Below, in pieces: positions 1-53,900 of a stretch of 64,000 nucleotides of DNA. Position numbers and translations under genes: made by a program. A model generated the notes under the pieces. That model made no database searches and had not been told where the DNA came from. It worked only from the letters and a program-made list of their open reading frames with translations. This DNA comes from Pseudoflavitalea sp. G-6-1-2. Lineage in GTDB: Bacteria; Bacteroidota; Bacteroidia; Chitinophagales; Chitinophagaceae. Within the stretch, counting starts at the first letter, position 1, and the number at the start of each line of letters is the position of its first letter. The stretch spans positions 1,860,001-1,924,000 of the forward strand of contig NZ_JABBGB010000001.1 in the NCBI RefSeq assembly GCF_012927185.1, in the 5' to 3' direction.

Positions 1-945
1 CTTTTTATTGCGCTGATGCTGCATGAATCTGATGCTGTCTTCTTTCAGCCGGAGCGTAATATCGCTGTTCACCAGATAGACCGAATCCGCACGGATAAGG
101 CCGTGCCGCGATAATGCCAGGAAGTCTACATTGGTGAGCTTCATGGTGTCTACGAACATGCTGAAATTGGCGGGTGAACCGGGATTGCGGAAAGCCAGGA
201 TGGTACAGCTGTCCAGCACTACCAGCTTCTGTCGGATATTGATGCCGAACCCCCTGAAAGCAATATGGTGCCTGCCATCGGGCAACGAAAAGCTTTGATG
301 GTTTGTACTGAGCACTACATTGTCTGAGAAAAGAAATTTATCGAACTGCTTGTGCTTGCTGGTGTCTACTTTGAAATTGTCTATATGAAAATGCAAGCGC
401 GAGATGGTGAGTGGCTGCAGTTGCGCATCGGTTTTATCGAGCAGTGTAATGCGTGCATCATCGATCTGAAAACGTTGGATGGAAAGAACAGCGAGTGCTT
501 TCTCGATGCTCTCATAGATCTTTCCCATCTCTTCCGGAAGCGACAGGTGTTTTTCTTCGCTTTCTCTTCGTTTGGTGATGGTGATATCGGGGTTCTGCAC
601 CAGAATGGAATCGATCAGCAATTGCTTATCGAAAATCAGGGAACGCACCGACCGTACTGTCAGATGCAGTTCCCTGATGTGGAAGTTGTACCCCAATGCT
701 TCTTTGGTGGTATCAACCGTATGAAATGAAATATTCTTTAGCGAAAGCTTTCTGCCGTAATTGTATTTGATCTTTCCGATCTCAACTTTCAGTTTGCCGT
801 TCGATTGAAGGCTCACAATATCTTCGATGGCCTTTTCTGCATGATGTATGAACCAGATGTAGAAAACTGCCAGAAGGGCCACGAGTATTGCTACTGTGAT
901 CCCGGATATTTTCAACGCTTTTCTGGTCAGCTTAATAAAGGTCAT
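1..945 (-). CDS. AsmA-like membrane-anchored protein, C-terminus cut by window edge
   Basis: An open frame of 315 codons reads from an ATG at 943-945 to the window edge without a stop. The product starts with a short basic stretch and one hydrophobic segment (about residues 10-30, KISGITVAILVALLAVFYIW). It continues as a periplasmic-type beta-rich chain with phrases such as GKLKVEIGKIKYNYG and SILVQNPDITITKRRE. That layout resembles AsmA/DUF748-type bacterial proteins, which are anchored in the inner membrane and are linked to envelope lipid homeostasis or transport. The family call rests on overall style only; no catalytic motif is visible. It is transcribed in the same direction as metG, 48 bp away from metG's stop. 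The missing C-terminal part is outside the window. Confidence 0.8.
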   Translation of the reverse strand, partial: MTFIKLTRKALKISGITVAILVALLAVFYIWFIHHAEKAIEDIVSLQSNGKLKVEIGKIKYNYGRKLSLKNISFHTVDTTKEALGYNFHIRELHLTVRSVRSLIFDKQLLIDSILVQNPDITITKRRESEEKHLSLPEEMGKIYESIEKALAVLSIQRFQIDDARITLLDKTDAQLQPLTISRLHFHIDNFKVDTSKHKQFDKFLFSDNVVLSTNHQSFSLPDGRHHIAFRGFGINIRQKLVVLDSCTILAFRNPGSPANFSMFVDTMKLTNVDFLALSRHGLIRADSVYLVNSDITLRLKEDSIRFMQHQRNKK

Positions 946-32914: not shown

Positions 32915-34348
32915 ATGGCAAAATCTTTTGACAAAGTTTGGAGCAATTGTTTGGAGATCATCAAGGACATAGTTGAGTGGCAACATTTCAAAACATGGTT
33001 TGAACCTATCAAACCTGTTGAGTTAAAGACGAACATTTTGGTAATCCAGGTACCCAGTCAGTTCTTTTACGAATACCTGGAGGAGCATTATGTGAATTTG
33101 TTGGCAAAGACTTTGCGTAGAGTGCTGGGGAAAGAGGCCAGGTTGGAGTATCGTATTATGGTTGATAGTGGAAATCATTCCAATAAACCATTAACGATGG
33201 ATGTTCCTACGCATGGGTACAAAACATTTTCCAGTAATGAAATGGATTTTCCACTCATCATACACAATCCGGTAAAGAATCCGTTCGTAATTCCGGGATT
33301 GAAGAAGATGCAGATCGATCCGCAGCTCAATCCTATATATACGTTCGAAAACTTTATTGAAGGTGACTGCAACAGGGTTGCCCGCAGAGCCGGTAAAACG
33401 GTGGCGGAAAAACCAGGCGCAAGTTCTTTCAATCCGCTTGTAATATATGGAGGAGTTGGATTGGGTAAAACGCACCTCGCGCAAGCCATCGGCAATGAGA
33501 CCAAGCGTCTTCAGCCGAATAAGGTGGTTTTATATGTGAGCTCGGAGAAATTCATCAATCAGTTCCAGGATCATAGCCGGAACAATGCAATCAACGACTT
33601 CATTCACTTCTATCAGCTGATAGATGTGCTGATTATAGACGACGTACAGTTCTTCAATCGTGCAGAGAAATCGCAGGATGCGTTCTTCGCCATCTTCAAT
33701 CACCTGCATCAGAGCGGAAAACAACTGATCCTCACTTCCGATAAACCTCCCAAAGATCTGGAAGGTGTTCAGGAAAGACTGCTCAGTCGTTTCCGCTGGG
33801 GCCTCAGTGCCGATCTGCAGGTGCCTGATTATGAGACCCGCATCGAAATCCTCGAGCGCAAGATGAAGAACGACGGTCTCGAAATGCCTCGTGAGGTGGT
33901 GAAATACCTTGCTTATAATGTAAACAACAACGTGCGCGAGCTGGAAGGCGCCCTGATTTCATTATTGGCACAATCTTCGCTTAATAAGCGGGAAATTGAC
34001 CTCGATTTGGCAAAAAGAGTACTCCGTAATTTCGTGAAAACCAGCAGTAAAGAAATTACCATCGAGACGATCCAGAAGATGGTATGTGAGTATTTTGATG
34101 TGCCGTATGATAAGCTGCTGCAGAAAACCCGCAAACGGGAAATTGTTCAGGCGCGTCAGATAACGATGTACCTGGCAAAGGCCTTTACAAAGAACTCTCT
34201 CAAAACCATCGGCGAACATTTCGGCGGAAGAGACCACACCACTGTGATCCACTCCTGCCAGACTGTAAAAGACCTGATGGATACAGATAGTACCTTCCGC
34301 GAAAGCGTGATGGAGCTGCAACAGAAAGTGCAGCTGGCCGCGATGTAA
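32915..34348 (+). CDS. dnaA: Chromosomal replication initiator DnaA
   Basis: The 477-aa protein shows all DnaA domains: N-terminal domain I (about 1-80), a linker, the AAA+ domain III (from about 150; Walker A GGVGLGKTHLAQAIGNE, Walker B VLIIDDVQFF, sensor region LILTSDKPPKDL), and the DNA-binding domain IV with the signature GGRDHTTVIHSC near residue 450. It opens DNA at oriC and also acts as a transcription factor. The start at ATG 32915 gives the usual domain I beginning. It stands between the long upstream region and a tRNA gene, not beside dnaN. Confidence 0.98.
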   Translation: MAKSFDKVWSNCLEIIKDIVEWQHFKTWFEPIKPVELKTNILVIQVPSQFFYEYLEEHYVNLLAKTLRRVLGKEARLEYRIMVDSGNHSNKPLTMDVPTHGYKTFSSNEMDFPLIIHNPVKNPFVIPGLKKMQIDPQLNPIYTFENFIEGDCNRVARRAGKTVAEKPGASSFNPLVIYGGVGLGKTHLAQAIGNETKRLQPNKVVLYVSSEKFINQFQDHSRNNAINDFIHFYQLIDVLIIDDVQFFNRAEKSQDAFFAIFNHLHQSGKQLILTSDKPPKDLEGVQERLLSRFRWGLSADLQVPDYETRIEILERKMKNDGLEMPREVVKYLAYNVNNNVRELEGALISLLAQSSLNKREIDLDLAKRVLRNFVKTSSKEITIETIQKMVCEYFDVPYDKLLQKTRKREIVQARQITMYLAKAFTKNSLKTIGEHFGGRDHTTVIHSCQTVKDLMDTDSTFRESVMELQQKVQLAAM

Positions 34349-34515: not shown

Positions 34516-34606
34516 GGTGAGGTGCCTGAGTGGCCGAAAGGGCCGGTTTGCTAAACCGTTGTACGAGCTTAAACTTGTACCGAGGGTTCGAATCCCTCCC
34601 TCACCG
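34516..34606 (+). tRNA. tRNA-Ser (anticodon GCU)
   Basis: A 91-nt cloverleaf with a long variable arm. The acceptor arms are GGTGAGG (34516-34522) and CCTCACC (34599-34605) with G as discriminator; the anticodon stem-loop GGTTTGCTAAACC gives anticodon GCT; the T arm is GAGGGTTCGAATCCCTC. The variable arm GTACGAG...CTTGTAC is typical of serine tRNA. CCA is not encoded. Its 3' end is the left attachment site of the integrated island. Confidence 0.97.
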
Positions 34607-34607
34607 C
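34593..34607 (+). repeat. Left attachment repeat (attL) in the tRNA 3' end
   Basis: TCCCTCCCTCACCGC spans the T-arm and acceptor arm of tRNA-Ser and is exactly repeated at 40803-40817. Confidence 0.85.
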
Positions 34608-34628
34608 TGGAAGTAATTCAAACTTGAT

Positions 34629-34668
34629 TAAAGGGTTCATAAGACGTTGGTTTTATGGACCCTTTTTA
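34629..34668 (+). terminator. Hairpin brought in by the element behind the tRNA
   Basis: AAAGGGTTCATA and TATGGACCCTTT pair imperfectly with a T run after; it probably terminates the tRNA transcript now. Confidence 0.6.
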
Positions 34669-34709
34669 ATTTTCTGCACCAATTTGAATCAAATCATATC
34701 AAACGGTTT

Positions 34710-34729
34710 GGTGTCCCATTCGGTGTCCC
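34710..34729 (+). repeat. Subterminal repeat, left copy
   Basis: GGTGTCCC-ATTC-GGTGTCCC, with an inverted GGGACACC nearby at 34747-34754, resembles GGTGTCAA-ATTC-GGTGCACC at 40724-40743 near the other end. Such paired subterminal motifs can be integrase arm sites. Confidence 0.45.
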
Positions 34730-34854
34730 GGAATTTATTTTAGATTTGGGACACCAGAAATCACTACAACACCCTACTGGTCTCGATTTGAACCTACCTG
34801 AGCTTTCGAAGAGCCTTTAGCCAAATTCGAAAAATCAAACAAGGAGGTTTTAAA

Positions 34855-36105
34855 ATGGAACACAGTATCAGTCTGCTGTTTTACATCAGAAAATCAAAAA
34901 CAACAAAAGAAGGTCTCGCACCGGTTTATGTTCGTATTACCGTGAATGGTAACAGAATTGATCAGAGCTTACAGAAATTTGTTTTGGTTGCGCGTTGGGA
35001 TGCTGCCGCGGGGCGGGTGAAAGGCAACAACCCTGAAGCAAAAGAGCTGAATACCTTTCTCGATGCCATCAGAGCAAAGGCTCTGAAGATGGAGCGTGAA
35101 ATGGTGCAGGATGGTGTCTGCATCACACTTGAAAGTTTTCGCGAGAAATGGTTCGGTGTTCACGATCGACCGCGCATGTTGCTGGAAATATTTCAGGAAC
35201 ACAATAATCAGGTTACCGCCCTGATCGGAAAGGAATTTGCAAAAGCAACGCTCACCCGCTTCAATACTTCAAAGGACCATGTTAGCGCATTTTTGCAGTG
35301 GAAATATAAAATCCGCGATATTGACATCAACCGGCTCAATTTTGAATTTGTGAGTGATTATGAGTTTTGGTTGAGAACACAGAAAAATTGCGGACATAAT
35401 ACAACGCTGAAGTATATCGCAGATCTCCGAAAAGTCATCAACACCTGCATTCGCAAACGGTGGTTAGTTCGTGATCCCTTTATCGGCTTCAAAATGACCA
35501 GGCATGAGGTAGATAAGGATTTTCTCACCGATGAAGAACTGCAAACAATTTTCTCCAAAGACTTCGAGACAGATCGGTTGAACCAGGTGCGAGATGTTTT
35601 TATCTTTTCCTGCTTTACTGGTCTTGCTTATGCAGATGTGCAGAAATTGAAAAGAACGGAGGTTGCGCGCGGAATTGAAGGGGATTACTGGGTTTTCACA
35701 AAACGACAAAAAACGGAGACAGCTTCAAGAATTCCACTTTTGCCTGTTCCGCTGCAAATAATAGAAAAATACAAGGATCATCCTGCTTGTATCAATTCGG
35801 GTAAAATTCTTCCAATTCCCAGTAATCAGAAGATGAATGCGTATTTAAAAGAAATCGCCAACATCAGTAAAATCCATAAAAATCTCACTTTTCATATCGC
35901 CCGCCACACTTTTGCTACAACCGTTACTTTGAGCAACGGCGTTCCAATGGAGTCCGTCAGCAAAATGCTCGGCCATAAAAATCTTAAAACAACCCAACAC
36001 TACGCCAAGATCCTCGACAGAAAAGTAAGCGATGATATGAAGCTGCTGCGGGAAAAGTTTACCGCTAAAGAAAACCTGAATAAACAGTCAAAATCTATCG
36101 GTTAA
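34855..36105 (+). CDS. Tyrosine recombinase / integrase
   Basis: The 416-aa protein is a phage-type integrase of the Bacteroidota kind. It has an N-terminal arm-binding domain (SLLFYIRKSKTTKEGLAPVY), a SAM-like core-binding domain (about 100-210) and a C-terminal catalytic domain. Catalytic residues visible are the HxxR pair in FHIARHTFAT, His in MLGHKNLKTT and the nucleophile Tyr in TQHYAKI. The first catalytic Arg is replaced by Ala in CFTGLAYADV, a variation common in this integrase branch. Its position right behind the tRNA-Ser repeat marks it as the enzyme that integrates the island. It starts with ATG 34855 after an AGGAGG-like ribosome site (AAGGAGG at 34841-34847), which is rare in this genome. 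Confidence 0.95.
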   Translation: MEHSISLLFYIRKSKTTKEGLAPVYVRITVNGNRIDQSLQKFVLVARWDAAAGRVKGNNPEAKELNTFLDAIRAKALKMEREMVQDGVCITLESFREKWFGVHDRPRMLLEIFQEHNNQVTALIGKEFAKATLTRFNTSKDHVSAFLQWKYKIRDIDINRLNFEFVSDYEFWLRTQKNCGHNTTLKYIADLRKVINTCIRKRWLVRDPFIGFKMTRHEVDKDFLTDEELQTIFSKDFETDRLNQVRDVFIFSCFTGLAYADVQKLKRTEVARGIEGDYWVFTKRQKTETASRIPLLPVPLQIIEKYKDHPACINSGKILPIPSNQKMNAYLKEIANISKIHKNLTFHIARHTFATTVTLSNGVPMESVSKMLGHKNLKTTQHYAKILDRKVSDDMKLLREKFTAKENLNKQSKSIG

Positions 36106-36407
36106 ACAACCGGCTTCGCCGGTTTTTCATATGACCGTGCCTGTGTTTTGCACGGAGCAAGATGTATAGTTGTATACAACAACGGAATATTGCCTACCAT
36201 TTTTTAACTTCTAACAGCGACTAAAATGCGTAATATGTAAACTAAGGGGAGTAAGGCCTCAATAATCTGGTATACACCTGCATCAATGATACGAAATATA
36301 AAGAGCAGTCGGATATCCTATCCAAGACTCAATACGAAACAGATATCAGACTAATCCGGAAAATAATTTACGTTAAAAAAATACGGATCTATGTGTACGA
36401 TGAATCA

Positions 36408-36530
36408 ATGGATATATTGATTGAAGAGCTTTCTGCATTAAGAGGAGAGATAATGGTTATTCGCAAGAACATTAATCAATTGACCAGGATTTGCAATATT
36501 TCAGACACAGCAAAAACTATTTTTTGCTAG
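36408..36530 (+). pseudogene. Remnant of a MobC-like mobilisation gene
   Basis: In one frame the sequence reads MDILIEELSALRGEIMVIRK then NINQLTRICNISDTAKTIFC and stops at TAG 36528-36530. The pattern LR.EI..I..NINQLTR..N is the conserved C-terminal part of relaxosome accessory proteins (MobC/BfmC type). The same frame stays open upstream to about 36257 but has no start codon or recognisable N-terminal part. No relaxase gene follows. I read it as a decayed mobilisation gene. The rest of 36106-36626 holds nothing else I can support. Confidence 0.4.
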
Positions 36531-36626
36531 GAATGGATATAGAGAGTATTTGAGAATGGAAAGTAAAAATGATACGGCAATTAACTTAATTAGCATTCTT
36601 GGAAGAAAGTGGCTTTCCGGTGAGAA

Positions 36627-36854
36627 CTAAAGATTTTCAACTTTCTTATGAAAGTCGGATATGCTAATCTTAAAGTATTTGCAAAGCGCAGATAATGTAC
36701 TTACGGAAACGTTAGCCTTGGCTGTTTCGATACGGCCGATATGGATGTTTGTTTCATTATATACATCCTCTTGAGTGACATTTCTCTCTTCTCGTAATTC
36801 TTTAATTACGATTGCAATTTGTTTCAAAAACCTACTATCTCGAACCTGCTTCAT
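36627..36854 (-). CDS. Small XRE-family helix-turn-helix regulator
   Basis: The 75-aa protein is almost entirely one HTH_3 domain: VIKELREERNVTQEDVYNET, then HIGRIETAKANVSVSTLSAL and CKYFKISISDF. The ATG at 36852-36854 (MKQVRDSRF) is preferred over a TTG three codons upstream. It is divergent from the AAA ATPase gene with about 147 bp between, so it may control the cargo promoter. It lies on the island and shares its AT-rich composition. Confidence 0.85.
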   Translation of the reverse strand: MKQVRDSRFLKQIAIVIKELREERNVTQEDVYNETNIHIGRIETAKANVSVSTLSALCKYFKISISDFHKKVENL

Positions 36855-36987
36855 TAAAATCAAATGTTAAGTAATAAAATGCTATGCTTAATGGGAAAGC
36901 TGAAGGGAAATAAGCTAACATAATGCTTGAGTTTTACCATCTTTTGCTTTATATTACCGTTAGAGTGGTAATTTAAGGTTATTTGGC

Positions 36988-36995
36988 TAATTTTG
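36988..36995 (+). promoter_or_regulatory. -7 box of the AAA ATPase gene
   Basis: TAATTTTG fits TAnnTTTG and ends six bases before the ATG at 37002, so the transcript would have almost no leader. Confidence 0.4.
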
Positions 36996-37001
36996 CTTAT
37001 A

Positions 37002-38033
37002 ATGAGTCAATTTGATTATATAAAAGAGATAGCGAAATCTGGTCTTGAAAATGATCAGGAAAAGCTATTGTCAGTTCTCAATGACTTTATTGAATATTCA
37101 AAAAAAACCAAGAAAATTAATTTTGCGCTCCAGCTTCAGTCAATACTCAAGGAAGCAACTTTTGTGCAAAAAAGTAATACCCTGACAAAAGTTGGTTCGG
37201 ATAACTATTACAATAGAATAGATGAGAGAGAAGTTAGTGATCTTATTTTAGAGAAACTAACTTCTGATTATTCTTTTAGCAATCTTGTAGCGAGTCAAGA
37301 CACGAAATCTCAATTGGAACTCTTTGTGAAAGAACACGAGGCACATGAATTGCTAAAAAAATTTGATCTACCGATTGCAAATAAACTTCTTCTTTATGGG
37401 CCTTCAGGTTGCGGTAAGACACTCGCATCTTATGTAATTGCAGGAGAGCTAAAAAAGATGATGGTTGTTGTAAATCTTGGTGCAATCGTGTCATCTAAAT
37501 TAGGTGAGACCAGTAAGAATCTTGCAAAAATTTTCAGGAAAGCGGCATCAGAAAACTGTATTATTTTTATTGACGAGTTTGATTCGCTTGGAAAAGTAAG
37601 GGATTATGACCAAGATCATGGCGAGATGAAACGGGTTGTAAACACTATACTACAATTATTTGATTATCTACCTCAAAGTAGTATAGTCATAGCGGCTACT
37701 AATCAAAAAGACATGCTAGATGATGCATTATTGAGGAGATTTGATCTGAATGTAGGATTTGACCTGCCCGATGAAAGTCAAATTAGAGAGTTAATTGAAC
37801 TTACATTAAAAAATGATCAGTTTAGTTTTGATAAACCTCAAAGCCTTTCATCAATTATTAAATCTGCGATTGGGTTATCCTTTTATAGTGTACAGAAAAC
37901 GCTAGTTACGGCAATTAAGCATAGTCTTTTCAAGCATTTGTCGCTAAAAGCAGTACCGATGCAAACGTTAATTGATACCAAAATATGGAAGGAGCTTATT
38001 TTTAAAGAAAAGAAGTCTTTAAGTAAAAAATAG
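37002..38033 (+). CDS. AAA+ ATPase, IetA-like
   Basis: The 343-aa protein has a helical N-terminal part (1-100) and an AAA+ core of the FtsH/proteasome-like classic type: Walker A GPSGCGKT (133-140), Walker B CIIFIDEFDS (186-195), sensor-1 ATNQ (232-235) and arginine finger ALLRRFD (242-248). It is paired with a subtilisin-like protease gene on the opposite strand. An AAA ATPase plus subtilase is the composition of the IetAS system, described first as a plasmid-maintenance pair on an Agrobacterium Ti plasmid (IetS toxic, IetA protective) and later as an anti-phage system. ATG 37002 is chosen because a TTG at 36993 lies within the promoter box. The pairing is inference from neighbourhood. Confidence 0.85.
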   Translation: MSQFDYIKEIAKSGLENDQEKLLSVLNDFIEYSKKTKKINFALQLQSILKEATFVQKSNTLTKVGSDNYYNRIDEREVSDLILEKLTSDYSFSNLVASQDTKSQLELFVKEHEAHELLKKFDLPIANKLLLYGPSGCGKTLASYVIAGELKKMMVVVNLGAIVSSKLGETSKNLAKIFRKAASENCIIFIDEFDSLGKVRDYDQDHGEMKRVVNTILQLFDYLPQSSIVIAATNQKDMLDDALLRRFDLNVGFDLPDESQIRELIELTLKNDQFSFDKPQSLSSIIKSAIGLSFYSVQKTLVTAIKHSLFKHLSLKAVPMQTLIDTKIWKELIFKEKKSLSKK

Positions 38034-38036
38034 CTA

Positions 38037-40466
38037 CTATTCTACATCAAGTGTACCTTCTTGTTCGATGTTAACATCTCCAATATTTTCGACGTAATTA
38101 GTTAAGATCATTTCATTATAGAGCTTTCCTGTTAATTTTGATTCTTTCAAACTTTCCTCTATTGTAATGACAATCGAAAAAGGATGGTCTTTTTGATAAG
38201 GAATCTCTGTCCCTGGAATTAGCTGAGGATTGATTCTACATTGAACTGCTAACTTGAATATACCGTTTTCATTGATTAAGTCTTGTACATTAACTGGGAA
38301 AGTGATTTTTTGTGTATTACAGTATGGAATTGGTTTGCTAACGTGTCTGCCAGATTGCGTCCAACGTAAATTACTTTTTAAGAGTGATTTAATATTTTCA
38401 TCAGTAGCTTGTATTTCAGTTCCTGTTTGATTTTTGAAAAAGCAGAATGCTATATGAATTGGACAATAACCTAACTGATGATTTATTACAGGAGCAAAGC
38501 TGAAACATAGCGTCGCTGTAATTTTTAAAATTCCATTTTTTTTACCTAATCTGTCTTTCACCAAATATTCTGGAAAATGTAGAGGGAATAGTCTTAATGT
38601 CTCAGGCTTAATTTCTTCTTCCAGCAAAAAAGTGATAGAATCCTCATCAGAATACACACTTTTGACTTCATTCGTTAATCCATGACCAGCTATTTTGTTA
38701 ATCATTTTAGAAGTTGGAGTAGGAAATCTAATTGCATTTAAGGATGCACTATTTATGATGAGAGCTTTTATAGATTGTGATTTTATGTTAGGGTATGCTC
38801 TTTGAATTTGAGCAGCAATATTTGCTACTAGAGGAGTGGAGTAGCTAGTACCAACATGTGAAATAAATCCTTCTGTTTCATTTGCTGATAGAACTTCCAT
38901 AGATGCATTAGCACCACTTCCAATAAGTCCGCTTTTGCTAAACTCATAATCTCCTCCGCATTCTATTACGTCGGGCTTGAAATAATGCTTGTTGATTTTG
39001 TTAAAAGGGAATATTTTATGAAGATCTATATGGCTTTTTCGAGTATATAAAGTTGGAAATTCTTTAGATGATGAAATGCCGACAAAATGCCCTGCACGTA
39101 ATGAATCTGCTGCAGCCCCAATCGTAAGGTTATTCATTGATTCTGCTGGTGTGCAGATATTTGTGTCTTCATTTAAGAAATACCTAGGATCGTAGGTCGT
39201 ATTCGCAAAAGCAGCGTTATCATTATTTGCAGTACAAATGAGAACTAGACAATCATTTTCATGTGCAAAGGTATCCAATGCAAATGCATATGCAGAGTGG
39301 TCTTCATTATATTGTTTATGATGCTGGAAGCAAGTTGTTAAGACAAAGAGCTTAATTTCGGGGTATTCTTGTTTGGCTCTATGTAATAAAGCAAGTATAT
39401 CCTTTTGAGAAAGATAGCAAGTTGAGTTGTCTGAAATTTTCATAGAAAGTAAACGCGCATCACTAGAAATTTTACCTCGATATCTGGCAGAGTAGGCTTT
39501 TTTTCCTAAAGCAGCAAGCGCTGCTACAGCGGTCCCGTGGTTGACATTGTCCTCAAAAACATTGCTATTTGTAAGGTCATAAGTTTGGTCGTTTATCAAA
39601 ATATTTTTGAGTGGGGTCTTGTCACTTATGCCTGTATCTAATATCCCAATTATTGGGAGAGGTGTATTTACGTCGTTAATTGTAAATCCATAAGATCTTT
39701 CAGGTAAATTCAACTCACTCGGGCTTATTACCGCAGAAAGTGCTGATGTTACACTTAGGACGATATCGTAATTCTTGACAATTTCTTCTATTTGAGCCTG
39801 AGAAGGCGTAATGACTTCAATATGTTTGTCTTTAATTGAATACGAAAATGGAATATTTCTTTCGGTTAAATAATTTTCTAGCGCTAATAGAATAGGTTGG
39901 AAGTGAGAGTTTCCTAAAGGGAAGTCATCTACCAATCTAAGATTCATAAGCGAGCCAAGGTTTTGAAATTGAATAATATCTTCTGAAGTAAGCAACCTAA
40001 ACTCCTTAATATAGATTACAAGGGGTGAGTAATTTACCTCTCTTTTATTAAGCTCTTTATCAATAAAGTTCTCAATTTCTTGATAGAATTTATTAAATTT
40101 TTCTCTGTCGGTAATTGCGAATAGAACTTCGGTATTGAATTTTGAAAAGTTTACTCCTAATATTCCGAATTCATTAAACCATCTATTGTAGAACGCTGAT
40201 GTTACAAATTGTGAGAAGAATGTTATTTGTATATAATCAATATGGTGGGGTACATTAAGGGCTTCATTTCGCTCACCTTCTCTGCTCTGGATATCTGATC
40301 TAAAGCGATTTAGGAAGCTTTGAAAAGCCCTAGCCATTGGCCTATAATCTTTATCGTTGTTATCATCTCTTACTTCCTCGTCAGAAAAGCCATAATTGAA
40401 CTTTAACGTAATTGAACCTTCATTCTGCCTTGATGTGTTTAATTTCACATGAGGGAGTTTGGGCAT
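38037..40466 (-). CDS. Subtilisin-like serine protease (S8), IetS-like
   Basis: The 809-aa protein has an N-terminal domain of about 260 residues with no known family, then a peptidase S8 domain with a full triad: Asp277 (PIIGILDTGIS), His310 (NVNHGTAVAAL) and Ser541 (HVGTSYSTPLVA); Asn414 or 415 in CTANND is the oxyanion residue. A beta-rich C-terminal domain follows. No signal peptide is present, so it is a cytoplasmic protease, as expected for IetS. It ends in a double TAG three bases from the stop of the AAA ATPase gene. The opposite orientation differs from the same-strand order I know for this pair. The start is ATG 40464-40466. Confidence 0.88.
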   Translation of the reverse strand: MPKLPHVKLNTSRQNEGSITLKFNYGFSDEEVRDDNNDKDYRPMARAFQSFLNRFRSDIQSREGERNEALNVPHHIDYIQITFFSQFVTSAFYNRWFNEFGILGVNFSKFNTEVLFAITDREKFNKFYQEIENFIDKELNKREVNYSPLVIYIKEFRLLTSEDIIQFQNLGSLMNLRLVDDFPLGNSHFQPILLALENYLTERNIPFSYSIKDKHIEVITPSQAQIEEIVKNYDIVLSVTSALSAVISPSELNLPERSYGFTINDVNTPLPIIGILDTGISDKTPLKNILINDQTYDLTNSNVFEDNVNHGTAVAALAALGKKAYSARYRGKISSDARLLSMKISDNSTCYLSQKDILALLHRAKQEYPEIKLFVLTTCFQHHKQYNEDHSAYAFALDTFAHENDCLVLICTANNDNAAFANTTYDPRYFLNEDTNICTPAESMNNLTIGAAADSLRAGHFVGISSSKEFPTLYTRKSHIDLHKIFPFNKINKHYFKPDVIECGGDYEFSKSGLIGSGANASMEVLSANETEGFISHVGTSYSTPLVANIAAQIQRAYPNIKSQSIKALIINSASLNAIRFPTPTSKMINKIAGHGLTNEVKSVYSDEDSITFLLEEEIKPETLRLFPLHFPEYLVKDRLGKKNGILKITATLCFSFAPVINHQLGYCPIHIAFCFFKNQTGTEIQATDENIKSLLKSNLRWTQSGRHVSKPIPYCNTQKITFPVNVQDLINENGIFKLAVQCRINPQLIPGTEIPYQKDHPFSIVITIEESLKESKLTGKLYNEMILTNYVENIGDVNIEQEGTLDVE

Positions 40467-40802
40467 TCGATTTGAGTTTTGGTATGAATGATAACGAATA
40501 TATTATTTTTATTAATTTATTTGTCAAAGTTTTGAAGGACGAAATCCAAATTTCCTTTAAAAGATAAATTACGGAATTTGATTTACTTGTAACTTTCTTA
40601 TAACCAAATTAATGGAGCTGGAATGTGAAAATTGATCACTCAGATTATTAGGGCTATTAAATCACATAGCTTGGCTCTTTGATTATATACCCTATTTTTG
40701 TATGGTTTTTTTCCAAAAGCCCAGGTGTCAAATTCGGTGCACCAAATCATCTTACAGAACCTAACATATTGAAAATAACCGCGCTTAGGGACCAGGTTCA
40801 TT
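40467..40802. other. AT-rich right arm of the island
   Basis: No gene is seen. It carries the upstream region of the protease gene and the right subterminal motif GGTGTCAA-ATTC-GGTGCACC (40724-40743). A tRNA-like block ACCAGGTTCATT precedes the right attachment repeat, a diverged copy of the T-arm sequence. Confidence 0.6.
40724..40743 (+). repeat. Subterminal repeat, right copy
   Basis: This copy shares 15 of 20 positions with 34710-34729 and lies about 60 bp inside the right end. Confidence 0.45.
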
Positions 40803-40817
40803 TCCCTCCCTCACCGC
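40803..40817 (+). repeat. Right attachment repeat (attR)
   Basis: Exact copy of TCCCTCCCTCACCGC at 34593-34607. The preceding bases (ACCAGGTTCATT) still resemble the T-arm of the tRNA (ACCGAGGGTTCGAA). Confidence 0.85.
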
Positions 40818-40833
40818 ACTACGAACTCAAAAT

Positions 40834-40866
40834 AAAAAGCAGTGGTTTACTCAACCACTGCTTTTT
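40834..40866. terminator. Bidirectional terminator at the island's right flank
   Basis: AAAAAGCAGTGGTT and AACCACTGCTTTTT form a perfect 14-bp stem around TACTC. It serves the minus-strand surface protein gene now and probably ended the tRNA-Ser transcript before the island inserted. Confidence 0.9.
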
Positions 40867-40937
40867 ATTTTCAGCTACTCCGGCTGATGTAACCAAAGTC
40901 CTGAACTCCGGTTCACATCAGCCAGGCCGCCTTCAAT

Positions 40938-43900
40938 CTATTTTACCAACACATTTACTGTTGCTTTCTGCCCATTACTCAGCAATAATGTTATACTATA
41001 TATTCCTCCATTCATTGGCAGGATGATGGAAGTTACCGGCTGCACAGTGGTTATCTGCTGAACTATTGTACCATTCGATGCACTTATCATCAATCTTGCA
41101 CCGGCCAGGACAGATTGATCAAAATTGCACGTAACCTTTGCCGTACTCCCTCCTGCGCCCGGATTAGGAAATACTTTGATCCCCTCTTTTGCACTGTTAC
41201 TGCCATTTAAAGAAAGCGGACAAGTTTGAATAACATTCCCGTTCTTGTCGGTGGCAATGGTATAGTAAGTTCCGTTGAGCGCAGTTGTTTCGCTGTAATA
41301 ACCCATAGTGGCACCAGGCACTGCAGTGCCGTTTTTGTACCATTGCCATTGTGCAAAATTGTTATCGGTATTGTCGAACAGCAAAACATCATTCCAGTGC
41401 TGTCTTACTTTCGATGGCGACTGGTATGTAAACGTATTGATGGCAGGAGCTGCTGCAAAATGATTCTCATCTCCTGACTGCATTGCTGTAATCAAGGTGC
41501 TGCCTGCGTTTAGAGGCGTGAGTGTTGAACCGCTCACCGTAGCGATGCTGGCATTGCCTGTAGTATAGGTAACCGGTAGGCCGCTGCTGGCGGTTGCAGA
41601 TAGCGCTATAGAAACTGCACCATTGCAGCCGGTTATCAAACTCTGTGTCCAGGTAATGGTCTGAGACGCTTTGGTTATTGTGAGATTATTGCCGGTAAAT
41701 GAAATGTCATAATTGTTTCCGGCATTCAATGTACCCCGATTGATAAGATAAATGCCCACATTCTCTCCGGCAACTCTGCTGGCACCACCACTGAATATGC
41801 TTTGATTATCTCCGCTTGCATAACTGGTTACAGTGTAGGTAAAGGCAGGATCTGCTGTGCCATAGACTTTCGTTTGAGCATCGGCTACAATAACCAGTGC
41901 TGCTTTACTGATGGTTAAGCTGCCGGCTATGTAACTAATATCATAATTGCCAGACGACAATCCTCCGGGAACGATGGTATAGCTATTTGCATTGATTGCC
42001 CCCTGCGATGTACCGTTGTACGATAACGTGCCTGTTAATGCTGCCGCTGTTTCGTTGTTTACAAACCCGGAATAAGTAACGCCATTACCGCCATTATATG
42101 CCAAACCATCGTACACTTTAGATGCATCGTTGGCCTTAACAGCCAAAGCTGCTTTGCTGATAGTTAAGCTGCCATTTGTATAGCTGATAGCGTAATTGCC
42201 AGACGACAATCCCCCGGGTGTGATAACATAGTTGTTTACATTGGTAGCTCCCTGTGATGTACCATTGTATGTTACTGTACCATTCAGCACAGCTGCTGAT
42301 TCACCGTTTACAAAACCAGCATAGGTAACACCATTGCCACCACTGTATGCCACACCATCGTACACTTTAGCTGCATTGTTGGCTGTTATCATCAGGTTAG
42401 CTTTGCTGATCGTTAAAGATCCGCCGGCATAATTGATAGCATAATTGCCTGATGATAATCCTGCGGGAGTAATCACATAATTATTTACATCAACAGCTCC
42501 CTGTGATGTGCCTCCGTAAGTTAATGTCCCTGTTAACACAGCCGCAGTTTCGTTGTTCACAAAACCAGTATAGGACACTCCATTGCCACCACTATATGCC
42601 AGACCATCGTAAACTTTGGAGACATCGTTGGCCTTAACTGTCAAAATAGCTTTGCTGAGGTTTAAGACGCCATTCATAAAAGTGATATCATAGTTGTCTG
42701 ATGATAATCCCCCTGGTGTGATCAAATAAATGTTAGCGTTGATGGCTCCCTGTGATGTACCAGTATAAGATAACGTGCCTGTTAATGCTGCCGCTGTCTC
42801 ATTGTTTTTAAAGCCCGTATAGGTAACCCCGTTGCCGCCGCTAAATGGCAAACCGTCGTATACTTTGGATGCATTGTTGGCTCTGGCAAGTAGAGTAGCT
42901 TTGCTTATATTAACAGTAAAACTTTTGCTGGCCGAATAGTAACCTGCGCCACCTGCCTGACTTGCCGTAATGAGCACTACACCGGCTTTTAATATTTTTA
43001 TCTTCCACTTGTTACCGTCAGCCGCATCCTGATAAGGTTGGGCAATGGAATTATCTGCAGAGGAATACGACAAAGGCAGGTTTGAAGTAGTGGTAGCTCC
43101 GGGTTCAAAATCAGCATTGCCATATGACTTTACGTGGTGGGCTGCCGTAATTGTTTGTGTTTGCACTTCATAAGCCCCGATATCTATTATGCCTCCGGTG
43201 GAGTAATCCGTAACGCGGACTCCGCCTTCCAGATCTTTGGAACCTGCGCTCAATCCAGGGTGCAGACTATTGTTTCCTGTATTGATAAGCGGACTGTTCA
43301 ACCCCAGCTTATAATTCGCGTTGCTGAAAGGTGCACTGCTGTAAGAAGGAGCATTTGCAAACAATGGATCCACAGCCGGATCCAATATGTGTTTCGTTGC
43401 ATCAGCAGCCATTCCCTGAACGAGGCTGTATTGTACGTTAACTGTATTATCGCCATTACTTCCGGGAGAACTCCCTATCCCACTTGAATTGCCATGAATA
43501 ACACTATTATTAATTGTGATACTACAGCCATTATAAGCATGTATTCCTCCTCCATTGCTGGTTCTGTTGCCACTGATAACCACATTTGTTAAGATCATGG
43601 ATGTATGCCCAAGCCCTATCCCGGCTCCATAGTTGCCTCCAGCATTGCCGCTGATAATGGTATTGGTAATAGGAAAATCGACTGCTTCTGTTATGCATAC
43701 ACCTACGCCGTAATTATCAGCAAAATTTCCACTGATTATTAAGTTGGATAATGGCACCAGACTACCATTAAGGTATATGCCGCCTCCATTAAACAAATAA
43801 AAATCCTGCCCATTCACGGTTACATAACTACTGCCGCCGTTTGCAAAGCCTTTAGTTATGGTAAAACCATCCAGTAATGCTGTACCCATTGGTCCTGCCG

Positions 43901-44438
43901 CTGTTACTACATGATAGGCATTATCTGAATTATTAATTGCCACTCCCAGATCACCGCTTAAGATCGAAGCATTGGCAGTAAGCGAGAGATTTCTGTCTGC
44001 AGGAGAACCCTCAGTTCCGGCAAAACCGCCATATACCTTTACGTCTTTTGTCAGATGAAAAGAATTGTTCCGGTTCGTAAAACTTGGCGTAGGCGTCGGA
44101 CCAGCATCGATGGCATACATCGGAGAATAAGTGCCGCCACTTACCCAGATTTGTTTTACAGTTCCTGGAGTTGAAGCATTATAAACTCTTGCCTTCTGTA
44201 GGGCAATGGCCAGCTCGGCAATGGCATTGTCCCAGCTATCGCCTCTCTGGTTGCCTGTACCTCCTTTTTTTACATAGAATATTCCATTAACATCAGGATT
44301 CTGCGCATAAAGGTTAGCTGAGGTCAATAGCCACAGGCTTACAATGCAGAAGGAAGAAAATACTGAGAATCGGGATTTGCTTTTGCCGGATAAATAAGAA
44401 GCAGCCCTGAATGCCAGGGAATTTGAGATTGAGGACAT
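40938..44438 (-). CDS. Large surface protein with beta-helix, MBG repeats and T9SS tail
   Basis: The 1166-aa protein has a signal peptide (SFCIVSLWLLTSANLYAQ) and an N-terminal right-handed beta-helix region of the choice-of-anchor/polymorphic-outer-membrane type (about 45-430: GGGIYLNGSLVPLSNLIISG, GNFADNYGVGVCITEA). Then come four near-identical MBG modules of 83 residues (motif SKVYDGLAYSGGNGVTY), one diverged MBG module and an Ig-like part. The last ~80 residues (IKVFPNPGAGGSTAK ... GIYSITLLLSNGQKATV) are a type IX secretion sorting domain. It is therefore probably exported across the outer membrane and attached to the surface. An adhesive role is inferred. The gene lies directly beyond the island. 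Confidence 0.9.
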   Translation of the reverse strand: MSSISNSLAFRAASYLSGKSKSRFSVFSSFCIVSLWLLTSANLYAQNPDVNGIFYVKKGGTGNQRGDSWDNAIAELAIALQKARVYNASTPGTVKQIWVSGGTYSPMYAIDAGPTPTPSFTNRNNSFHLTKDVKVYGGFAGTEGSPADRNLSLTANASILSGDLGVAINNSDNAYHVVTAAGPMGTALLDGFTITKGFANGGSSYVTVNGQDFYLFNGGGIYLNGSLVPLSNLIISGNFADNYGVGVCITEAVDFPITNTIISGNAGGNYGAGIGLGHTSMILTNVVISGNRTSNGGGIHAYNGCSITINNSVIHGNSSGIGSSPGSNGDNTVNVQYSLVQGMAADATKHILDPAVDPLFANAPSYSSAPFSNANYKLGLNSPLINTGNNSLHPGLSAGSKDLEGGVRVTDYSTGGIIDIGAYEVQTQTITAAHHVKSYGNADFEPGATTTSNLPLSYSSADNSIAQPYQDAADGNKWKIKILKAGVVLITASQAGGAGYYSASKSFTVNISKATLLARANNASKVYDGLPFSGGNGVTYTGFKNNETAAALTGTLSYTGTSQGAINANIYLITPGGLSSDNYDITFMNGVLNLSKAILTVKANDVSKVYDGLAYSGGNGVSYTGFVNNETAAVLTGTLTYGGTSQGAVDVNNYVITPAGLSSGNYAINYAGGSLTISKANLMITANNAAKVYDGVAYSGGNGVTYAGFVNGESAAVLNGTVTYNGTSQGATNVNNYVITPGGLSSGNYAISYTNGSLTISKAALAVKANDASKVYDGLAYNGGNGVTYSGFVNNETAAALTGTLSYNGTSQGAINANSYTIVPGGLSSGNYDISYIAGSLTISKAALVIVADAQTKVYGTADPAFTYTVTSYASGDNQSIFSGGASRVAGENVGIYLINRGTLNAGNNYDISFTGNNLTITKASQTITWTQSLITGCNGAVSIALSATASSGLPVTYTTGNASIATVSGSTLTPLNAGSTLITAMQSGDENHFAAAPAINTFTYQSPSKVRQHWNDVLLFDNTDNNFAQWQWYKNGTAVPGATMGYYSETTALNGTYYTIATDKNGNVIQTCPLSLNGSNSAKEGIKVFPNPGAGGSTAKVTCNFDQSVLAGARLMISASNGTIVQQITTVQPVTSIILPMNGGIYSITLLLSNGQKATVNVLVK
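41913..42908 (-). repeat. Four tandem 249-bp MBG repeats
   Basis: The codons for KVY recur at 42858, 42609, 42360 and 42111, a constant step of 249 bp (83 residues). The units are very alike at the DNA level, so copy number could vary by recombination. Confidence 0.85.
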
Positions 44439-50994: not shown

Positions 50995-53900
50995 ATGACA
51001 AAACACTACCCTCTGTGGGGGAAGCTGCTGAGCAGACAGGTTCCCTTCTTGCTGATGCTGTTCTTTTGCAGTATCATCTCTTCATCCTCCTATTCTCAGG
51101 CCTTCGTAAAAGGCGGACGTATTTTATCAGGAAACCAAACAGAAACATTAACCGATCTTATTGTCGACAACAGTGGCAACAGTTATTTGCTGCTGGCAAC
51201 GAACTCCAACAATCTGCCTGTTACCATCTCTGCGCCTGTCGGTGGATCTGGTACAAAAGGAGCGTTGTATAAGATTAGTCCTTCAGGCAATATCATATGG
51301 AGCCGTTATCTGCCGCATCAGACCACCGGAAGCCTCAATGTGGGCTTGAACAAAGTAGCGATCGATAATGGCATACTGTATCTGGTTGGTCCTTCCGGTG
51401 TGCCCAATCTTCCCGTAACGGATGGCTCAACAGGGCAGGGAGGAGGAAATGATGTGCTGTTCATGACCATGGATGCAAACAACGGATCGATACTGCAATC
51501 GAAATATCTCGGAGGAAATGGCAATGATGATTCTCCTTTTGCCATCAAGGTTGAAAGCGGCGCCGTGTATCTTTCTTATGCTACTACTTCCACCAACATT
51601 CCGGTTACATCGGGCCCGGCACTGACAAGCGGCACCGATCAGATTGTACAGAAGCTCTCGCTGAGCGGCACGGTGCTTACCAGTGTGATGGCGCGTGCCG
51701 GAGCCGCTGCATCTTCCATTGTATTTGAGAATAGTGTAGCAGCCATGGCTTTTTCAACAGCAAATACAGCTAATTTCATCACTACAGACGGCAGTACCGG
51801 CAATGGAGCCACTGATTTCGGAATAGTGAAGATCGATGCTTCCGGCAACAGAGTGTATGGTGTACTGTTAGGTGGTGCAGGGGATGAAACACAGCCCACC
51901 ATCAAACTGGTGAACGGGCAGGTATATCTCGCTGGCACAACCACTTCTGCCAATTTTCCTGTTACTGATGGAACCAGCTTTTCGAACACTTATAAACATA
52001 TCCTCACAAAATTTGCAGCCAATGGAGCTGTATTGTACAGCAGCATCAAAGCTGGCGTAACCAGTGGCACTGATTACCCCTGTATCGAAGTAGGTGATGG
52101 ATCGGTGTACTTAATGGCATCCGGCTTCGGTACGGCTCCTGTGGTGAATGCAACTGATGGCACATCGGGTGGAATATACCTGATCCGTTCAAATGCGGTG
52201 AACGGGCAGACAATTTTTGCAACCACGATAGGATCAATTCCTGGAATTTCGGCCCGTACCGGTTCTGCATTGCTCTATCACAATGGAAAGATACATTTGG
52301 CCACTCCCACTACAGGTGTTGCCAATAACCCGGTTACGGATGGTTCGGTCAGGCCCGGTCAGGCCGGTTCTTATATCAACACTTATTCAAAAGAAGGGAA
52401 GCTGTTATTTGCCACCTATAGATCATCTGGCGGTTCGGTAGGGAATTTCATTCCACCAAAACTTGCGGCATCCGGCAACTATCTCTTCATTGCGGGCAAT
52501 GCCTTGCAGGCGAGTGCCACTCATATTCCTATGACTGTTCCTTCTACTGTCACAGGAGCTACTACACAGGATATTTCCTGGATGTCCTATGAGTATTGTC
52601 CTCCAATGCCAACCACCAATAATATTGCGCCTGTGTCGCAGACCATTTGTTCAGGTGGATTCACACAGGCGCTCACCGGGAATAAGGTAGCATACTCTTC
52701 GGAGAATATGCCGCTGCTGATAAGACTTAACGCCACATCTCAGCAAACGGAGATCACGGCCAGATATCAATGGCAGGTAGCGCTTTCTCCTTCCGGCCCA
52801 TGGACCGACATCGTAGGTGTGGGCACTCAAAAAGATTACACACCGCCTTCCGCTGCGGAGAGCAGGTATTATCGCAGACTGGTGCTGCCTCCTGCAGGAT
52901 GCAGTGATGTTCCGGTAAGCACTTCTGCTGTTGCTGAAGTATTGGTAGGAGCTGATATGGCTCCTGATGTAACTTCTTCCATTTACAATACCTGCGTGAA
53001 TGCTGCGGTGAATGTGGGTGTAACGGTCAGTGGCGGAACTGCTCCATATACCTATGCATGGGATAATGGTGTAACGAGTACAACCGAAAATGCCACTGTT
53101 ACTCCTGCAGGAAACAGCGTGTACACAGTTACTGTTACCGACAATAAAGGTTGTCAGCAGAAAGGTCAGGTAATTGTGAATGCTTATGCTGCAAATGCCG
53201 GCCCGGCAAGCATCAACAGCTGTGCAGGCAAAGCAGTCAGACTGGGTACGGAACCACCTGCCGGCCTTACCGGTGTTACTTATTCATGGAGCCCTGCTGC
53301 TGGTCTCGATAATCCAAATATTGCGCAGCCAATGGCGTCTCCTGCTTCCAATACCACTTACACGCTTACCATGACTGTACCGGTCACTGGCGGAGGAACC
53401 TGCCAGACAACCGATGCGATCGATGTGGTAGTTGCAGCCGGGCCAACCACCGCTAACTTTGCAGGCCCCGATGTAGCACTCTGCAAAGGTGAGTCAACTA
53501 CGCTGGGAACCCCTGCTGAAGCGGGTTTCAATTACGTGTGGTCGCCCGGCAGCTATCTCAGCGCAGTGAATACCAGCACTGTTACTTTCAATCCGGGAAG
53601 CAGCATCCCTACTGCTAACCCTATCACCTATACGCTTACTGCATCGGCCAACGGATGTTCCTTTACCGATAATGTGACCGTTGCCGTGCTGGATGTAAAT
53701 GCAGGAAAGGATTTCTGCGGACCACGCACTGTTGGTACTAAAGATGCATTGCCAAATGTTGTGGGTGAAACATATCTCTGGGAAAAGATATCCGGTCCCG
53801 GAACTATTACCGGAGCTGTTGATCAGCCAACCACTACGGTGTCTGCTTCCCCAGGCGCTACAACTACGTATCGTCTCACCGTTACCTATCTTGGCAAAAG

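Follow-up and report, generated by a model that had tools for sequence, protein, structure and literature searches.

IetAS of the Agrobacterium plasmid pTiC58, listed as anti-phage in PADLOC and in NCBIfam (IteA/IteS), consists of an AAA+ ATPase gene followed on the same strand by the gene of an S8 protease. In SgiAT (S026-S025) of Salmonella genomic island 1, an integrative mobilizable island, an ATPase antitoxin is combined with a subtilisin toxin, and the genes form a putative operon with the ATPase first (PMC5006074). The mycoplasma AAA-ATPase/subtilisin-like pair TA132/3 is reported to comprise a toxic protease that is neutralised by the ATPase, with both genes on one strand in an operon backed by RNA-seq (PMC8562856). 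Here, we describe a related pair in a window of 64,000 nucleotides from Pseudoflavitalea sp. G-6-1-2 (contig NZ_JABBGB010000001.1, positions 1,860,001 to 1,924,000), in which an IetA-like ATPase gene and an IetS-like protease gene face each other. The ATPase stop codon ends at 38033 and the protease stop codon, on the complementary strand, begins at 38037, leaving the three bases between the stops that a first-pass annotation of the window had reported. Like IetAS of pTiC58, the locus combines an AAA+ ATPase with an S8 protease, a homologous N-terminal region, adjacent genes and a mobile-element context. However, its genes are convergent, its proteins score far below the equivalog cut-offs, and the conservation of its ATPase relative to the protease exceeds that in one-strand pairs.

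The pair is likely a two-gene IetAS-type module with a toxin-antitoxin and probably an anti-phage function, carried on a tRNA-Ser integrative element with a broken mobilisation gene. Convergent pairs represent a deep variant of the IetAS toxin-antitoxin/defence kind with an architecture of its own, and a well-bounded separate subfamily in Bacteroidota. No convergent IetAS was found in literature searches on IetAS and its parts, on convergent toxin-antitoxin systems and on overlapping genes, in which not all IetAS papers were checked for orientation and most subscription papers lay outside.

Family membership and orientation of the pair

The first-pass annotation had related the two proteins to IetA and IetS while allowing that profile similarity might be absent, and strong matches were found. 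The ATPase matches PADLOC IetA with an E-value of 3.1e-70 over residues 7-315 of 346, i.e. most of its length, the protease matches PADLOC IetS with an E-value of 9e-40 over residues 195-676, and the NCBI equivalogs IteA and IteS rank first in the respective scans. Since these strong matches go together with scores well below the equivalog cut-offs, the proteins are best regarded as homologues of the IetAS kind that lie outside the narrow equivalogs. In the broad sense of PADLOC, the locus belongs to the IetAS family, with an ATPase match, a protease match with the catalytic triad, an IetS-type N-terminus and adjacent genes, whereas the layout of described IetAS (same strand, ATPase upstream) is not shared by the convergent pair. 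In all 31 members of the convergent clade that were compared, Asp277, His310, Ser541 and Asn414 of the protease are invariant, confirming the full Asp-His-Ser triad noted earlier. Lys142-Thr143, Asp194-Glu195 and Arg248-Arg249 of the ATPase (numbered from TTG), which we take to be its Walker A, Walker B and arginine-finger motifs, are likewise invariant in 31 of 31. For the ATPase we adopted the ATG at 37002 as start codon (343 aa), in line with the beginning of the clade alignment; the mechanical open reading frame (ORF) starts at the TTG at 36993. The Walker A position given before (133-140) fits numbering from the ATG, but the start given at 36988 corresponds to neither codon. Besides IteA, the ATPase scores best with the NCBI families CdvC, CDC48, FtsH and PAN; among solved structures, its best relatives are p97/Cdc48. 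The protease model (predicted local distance difference test, pLDDT, 79; predicted template modelling score 0.71) resembles SubHal and KP-43 (Z 29, root-mean-square deviation 2.9, ~376 residues). By eye, with no predictor run, no signal-peptide-like start was seen in the protease, which begins MPKLPHVKL.

Relatives were collected with protease searches of 395 genomes of the phylum, 395 of the class and 195 of the family, as well as plasmid and phage records. The phylum set was searched again with the ATPase profile, and genome and viral contig collections were also scanned, the genome-contig query being built from four convergent members that had been picked for their sequence, irrespective of orientation. 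The convergent clade comprises at least 34 distinct pairs, the window's own included, and more members exist than among the matches listed; 'distinct' means that pairs differ within the last 600 bases of the protease gene, and some members are near relatives. Its 34 proteases come from Bacteroidota records (27), a viral contig (L061) and further genomes (6). Among the matches listed, the ATPase gene adjoins the protease gene in convergent orientation in 34 of 34 distinct clade pairs, indicating that the layout is not due to chance. What had been described as an oddity of this locus is therefore a trait of the clade, and the independent occurrence of the two genes, which had been named as a possible objection to their pairing, was not encountered in these 34 pairs. 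Carriers among the matches listed include Chitinophaga, Pedobacter, Mucilaginibacter, Sphingobacterium and Spirosoma, as well as Hymenobacter, Algoriphagus, Flavobacterium, Labilibaculum and Prevotella. The four strong ATPase-profile matches in the phylum set are the same pairs as those of the protease search. The clade is uncommon, occurring in 4 of 395 phylum genomes and 7 of 395 class genomes (three shared).

Outside the clade, both genes lie on one strand, ATPase then protease, in all 35 pairs that could be resolved, each from a different genome or record and together spanning three phyla, a collection that is not a random sample (20 pairs used in trees, L097, L099, L101, L107-L114 and L138-L141; in L099 and L101 the ATPase is visible only in part). 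Ten of these pairs stem from outside Bacteroidota (Ralstonia, Sporomusa, Cytobacillus, Vibrio, Enterococcus, Marinibacterium, Bradyrhizobium, Sphingobium, Nitrosospira and an Escherichia phage). Together with sgiAT and the mycoplasma pair, they agree with the earlier statement that described pairs run on one strand. Both layouts meet in the window's own family, where 6 of 195 genomes match at an E-value of 1e-30, comprising the window's convergent pair and five one-strand pairs.

Trees of 31 convergent and 20 one-strand pairs, in which the root was not inferred and long branches separate the groups, gather the convergent pairs into one group, both for the ATPase (support 100/100, 200 of 200 bootstrap trees) and in a quick protease tree (Shimodaira-Hasegawa-like approximate likelihood ratio test, 100). 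Orientation requires a single change on both trees, versus ~16 with shuffled labels. Because of its wider spread, the one-strand layout is probably ancestral.

The 38 rows of the phylum search consist of 4 convergent pairs, 17 one-strand pairs, 8 weak subtilase matches (L022, L024-L030), 8 rows left out of the orientation count and one at a contig edge (L018). No ATPase lies beside the weak subtilase matches or beside the class-search matches L098, L100, L104 and L105 in the short stretches in view. Matches identical to others (L062 to L058, L071 to L051, L090 to L036) and repeats (L063-L066, L089, L091, L092, L096, L102, L103, L106) were left out of the counts. Longer stretches replaced L002-L017, L019-L021 and L023 (by L069-L088) and L093-L095 (by L117-L119), and L129 lies within L072. 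Protease matches occurred in 315 plasmid and 3 phage records, none covering 80% of the protease. In viral contigs, the protease query recovered one convergent member, L061 (7881-11462), a divergent representative of the clade on a contig classed as viral in IMG/VR. The scan of viral contigs with the ATPase gave no match, and it must be insensitive, since L061 carries that ATPase yet went undetected. Two ATPase-profile matches (G316 and G025, E-value ~1e-61) were considered as orphan IetA lacking a protease and were not counted as clade members. Their AAA proteins (~235 aa) match the window ATPase only from about residue 58 or 90, no IetS lies within the 14 kb taken, and the AAA gene directly follows the same 243-aa gene in both genomes, which we take to be YggS-like. 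Single ~235-aa AAA ATPases located directly after the same gene in two same-class genomes (L115:7074-7778 and L116:6150-6875), 49% and 41% identical to the window ATPase over the AAA part, are possible chromosomal cousins of IetA. TIR-domain genes were seen near one-strand pairs on plasmids, on both sides in Enterococcus (L108:1-5244) and one gene further on in Sphingobium (L111:5655-6257).

Protein constraint, junction and transcription

At protease identities of 25-40%, median ATPase identity is 63% in the convergent clade (398 pairs, 31 rows) versus 44% in one-strand pairs (60 pairs, 18 rows), the pairs not being independent, and the excess is most evident in the ATPase N-terminal region (64% versus 37%). 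The protease-to-ATPase branch-length ratio is 2.1 in the clade versus 0.7 in one-strand Bacteroidota pairs. The latter have larger ATPase distances, and when these are matched (1.2-1.8) the ratio is ~0.8-1.1; branch lengths agree with the ATPase excess in part. Protein distances within the clade are correlated, with a Mantel r of 0.71 that none of 2000 permutations reached, but a Spearman coefficient of only 0.33. The clade ATPase is conserved far more than its protease, and we read it as being held by a conserved partner or target. By analogy with distant relatives on which experiments have been carried out, the protease would be the toxin and the ATPase the antitoxin. The same conservation, N-terminal part included, would also suit a degradation machine resembling FtsH or the proteasome ATPases, in which proteins of phage or host would be unfolded by an AAA+ ring and passed on to the subtilase, with the ATPase as activator and selector rather than antitoxin. 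The kinship with CdvC, CDC48, FtsH, PAN and p97/Cdc48 also speaks for such a machine. However, in distant relatives the ATPase is reported to neutralise the protease, and we consider the degradation machine unlikely.

The N-terminal domain of the protease had been described as belonging to no recognised family, but the N-termini of the clade align with those of 17 one-strand Bacteroidota IetS (hhalign probability 96.4, E-value 1.2e-9), and because of this homology the domain is not unique. Folded alone, the region has a mean pLDDT of 82.5 (mostly >90 in residues 41-240) and forms two tandem beta-alpha-beta-beta-alpha-beta (ferredoxin-like) units. The sole Foldseek row below an E-value of 0.001 is the regulatory part of aspartokinase (9.6e-4, TM 0.22), presumably ACT-type; acetolactate synthase regulatory subunits and RRM pairs come next. 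VIA rows for residues 160-245 include chains of PCSK9 (Z 6.3) and PAM protease (6.2), which we take to be prodomain chains, and prosubtilisin E (5.2), with ribosomal S6 and metallochaperones scoring level with the prodomain chains; these rows mainly span residues 168-245, and families absent there may still match. Since the ferredoxin-like fold combines an ACT-type top row with prodomain chains, sensing of a trigger, as suggested in the first-pass annotation, and prodomain-like inhibition are both possible, the latter being favoured by the position of the domain just before the catalytic domain. The protease may thus be inhibited by its own N-terminal domain.

Stop-to-stop gaps in the 34 clade pairs range from -24 to +89 nt, with a median of +1 and at most 16 nt in 30 of them. 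By comparison, 42 other convergent gene pairs from the window and the flanks of convergent and one-strand loci have a median gap of 122.5 and reach 16 or less in 9 cases (Mann-Whitney p 8e-7), although their crude ORF-based calls may overstate the gaps. Within 37700-38400 of the window, no terminator-like site was found (0.2 expected), in agreement with the first-pass annotation. The -7 box of Bacteroidota promoters has the consensus TAnnTTTG; it occurs upstream of the ATPase at 16 of 31 loci (3.5 expected) and, with weaker enrichment, upstream of the protease at 8 of 31 (2.35 expected).

In the mechanism that we consider most likely, the protease would act as a toxin in the cytoplasm. The ATPase would hold it in check, perhaps with help from the protease's own ferredoxin-like N-terminal domains, until infection or loss of the element disturbs the ATPase and sets the protease free. 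Each gene must be read from its own outer side. Given an outer promoter for each gene and, in most cases, no recognisable terminator between the genes, the two messages probably run into one another and limit each other. The two related pairs are described as operons and the clade is not, so it must set its toxin/antitoxin ratio otherwise. Mutual antisense control of both genes, which the first-pass annotation had also raised, is a plausible means, although we rate it somewhat below even. In its fullest form the proposal is tentative and open to considerable doubt: a built-in mutual antisense would set the ratio in a 'type I plus type II' hybrid, whose messages are each other's antisense, with the tail-to-tail layout preserved throughout a phylum-wide clade and the fast-evolving protease restrained or aimed by an ATPase that evolves slowly. 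Parallels have been described. Tha/Ith of Staphylococcus phage 80alpha comprises an immune effector and its inhibitor on opposite strands, balanced by antisense transcription, but it is a nested noncontiguous operon and consists of a HEPN-domain RNase with its inhibitor rather than an ATPase-protease pair (PMC11087260). In the type I systems bsrG/SR4, bsrE/SR5 and txpA/RatA of Bacillus, the toxin message pairs at its 3' end with an antisense antitoxin RNA, whereas here the antitoxin would be a protein, and their toxins are small membrane peptides (PMC8464778). Head-on convergent transcription has been modelled as a tunable switch (PMC4519249).

Several observations weigh against the module and mechanism proposed here. 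The NCBIfam cut-offs for IteA_antiphage and IteS_antiphage are missed widely (ATPase 201.7 of 510 bits; protease 108.3 of 900 bits), and matches of the N-terminal domain to known folds lack both strength and specificity. Among the closest pairs, with protease identity >60%, the ATPases show no excess conservation (0.87 versus 0.85; 13 and 5 pairs). The full promoter pattern with its -33 part is nearly absent (0 of 31 ATPase and 1 of 31 protease upstream regions), and some start sites used in the upstream promoter counts are crude. Words shared between the upstream regions of the two genes are near chance across 31 loci, with the weak exception of reverse-complement 11-mers (2 of 31 versus 0.18 expected). 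Terminator-like sites, present at 6 of 34 clade junctions versus 13 of 40 controls, or 3 of 13 controls with gaps up to 50, are not clearly depleted. Synonymous conservation at the 3' ends is not clearly raised (last 15 codons of the ATPase 50% versus 46%; protease 72% versus 65%), and no conserved RNA element was seen at the junction; antisense pairing needs no synonymous conservation. The last three of these findings, on shared words, terminators and synonymous sites, also suit a frozen accident, to which we give a nearly even chance: after one ancestral rearrangement, small islands would have shed DNA until the stops touched, each gene retaining its own promoter and the layout having no regulatory role. 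That one change explains all pairs is in keeping with such an accident. Against it, no reversal was seen though the proteases diverged to 25-40% identity, and the gaps are far tighter than those of the 42 other convergent pairs, yet in 4 of 34 clade pairs they have widened to 23-89 nt.

The integrative element and its surroundings

The region ~34608-40817 reads as an integrative element because the last 23 bases of the tRNA-Ser gene recur at its right end (Table 1), which agrees with the island proposed earlier. The two copies of this 23-nt repeat (D3) are 87% identical, the last 15 nt being the same in both, and dnaA (32915-34348; named from sequence) precedes the tRNA gene. The two genes had been described as alone as cargo, which is nearly right: the element additionally contains an integrase gene, a small HTH gene and a MobC-like gene that is broken. 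The similarity of the last is split over two reading frames, and its query protein, from stretch L133, matches Pfam MobC_2.

Table 1. Positions of the gene pair and of the parts of the element in the window
Feature	Position	Strand	Evidence
tRNA-Ser(GCT), integration site	34516-34607	+	ARAGORN
Left attachment-site repeat (tRNA gene 3' end)	34585-34607	+	Direct repeat D3
Tyrosine recombinase (integrase), 416 aa	34855-36105	+	Pfam Arm-DNA-bind_5, Phage_int_SAM_5, Phage_integrase
Broken MobC-like mobilisation gene	36255-36627	+	tblastn with MobC-like protein of L133, E-value 1.4e-25
Small Cro/C1-type HTH gene, divergent from ATPase	36627-36863	-	Pfam HTH_3 3.9e-9
IetA-like AAA+ ATPase, 343 aa, putative antitoxin/regulator	37002-38033	+	PADLOC IetA, Pfam AAA 9.2e-32, clade alignments
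Convergent junction, three bases between stops, without terminator-like site	38034-38036	.	
IetS-like S8 protease, 809 aa, putative toxin/effector	38037-40466	-	PADLOC IetS, Pfam Peptidase_S8 5.9e-26
Protease parts: two ferredoxin-like units; S8 domain; C-terminal beta domain	residues ~76-245; ~263-605; ~606-790		Models
Right attachment-site repeat	40795-40817	+	Direct repeat D3

The HTH gene is a possible regulator. As a third component it would repress the divergent ATPase promoter, control would be classical and the convergence incidental; its orientation, with ~140 nt between the two genes, and its Cro/C1-type HTH are compatible with this role. However, a scan of clade flanks (30 loci, up to five ORFs of at least 100 aa each, 142 of 143 chosen proteins) found HTH_3 in only 3 of 142 flank proteins of relatives, marking the HTH gene as a non-recurring neighbour, and a repressor of this kind is quite improbable. 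No Pfam family recurred in more than 6 of the 142 proteins as a third gene, in a scan that would miss genes without a Pfam family; 6 proteins match phage integrase and 3-4 match type I restriction-modification models.

Among five other genomes of the genus, all of which contain the left flank up to the tRNA, one (G732) has an integrase with 89% identity at the same tRNA-Ser, and behind it an open MobC-like gene and then AbiEii, SIR2-like and nSTAND genes (L133:126-8648). There, AbiEii has a DUF6922 partner, the SIR2-like gene encodes a TPR protein (PADLOC 6.5e-17; Pfam SIR2_2 below its cut-off), and the nSTAND protein matches PADLOC PDC-S60 (1.6e-304, from profile position 192). Since the same integrase precedes different defence genes in G732, we read the tRNA-Ser site as a place of defence-cargo exchange, which is context for the putative anti-phage role of the convergent pair. 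The right end of the G732 element was not located. No such integrase was found in the other four genomes, where the stretches examined reach 2.4 to ~10.5 kb past the tRNA, and an exact empty site was not obtained: neither the DNA of the right flank nor its two genes turned up in the same-genus stretches taken.

Beside the right repeat, a gene on the reverse strand (40938-44438) encodes a protein of 1166 aa that is rich in repeats and possibly secreted, and an inverted repeat of 22 nt (95%) lies just past the 3' end of this gene (40826-40874). Further on, the window contains an 1827-aa ORF (50995-56478). The genome around the window measures 6.1 Mb.

Implications of the convergent layout

In the IetAS-type operons described, the ratio of antitoxin to toxin can be set by joint transcription and by the order of the genes. 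The clade retains the reverse arrangement, its stops almost in contact, while protease identity has fallen to 25-40%, which shows that an operon is not needed. Convergent pairs are therefore natural material for asking whether tail-to-tail transcription sets the toxin/antitoxin ratio. In addition, constraint on the ATPase is stronger in the clade than in one-strand pairs, and this points to a partner or target that is fixed.

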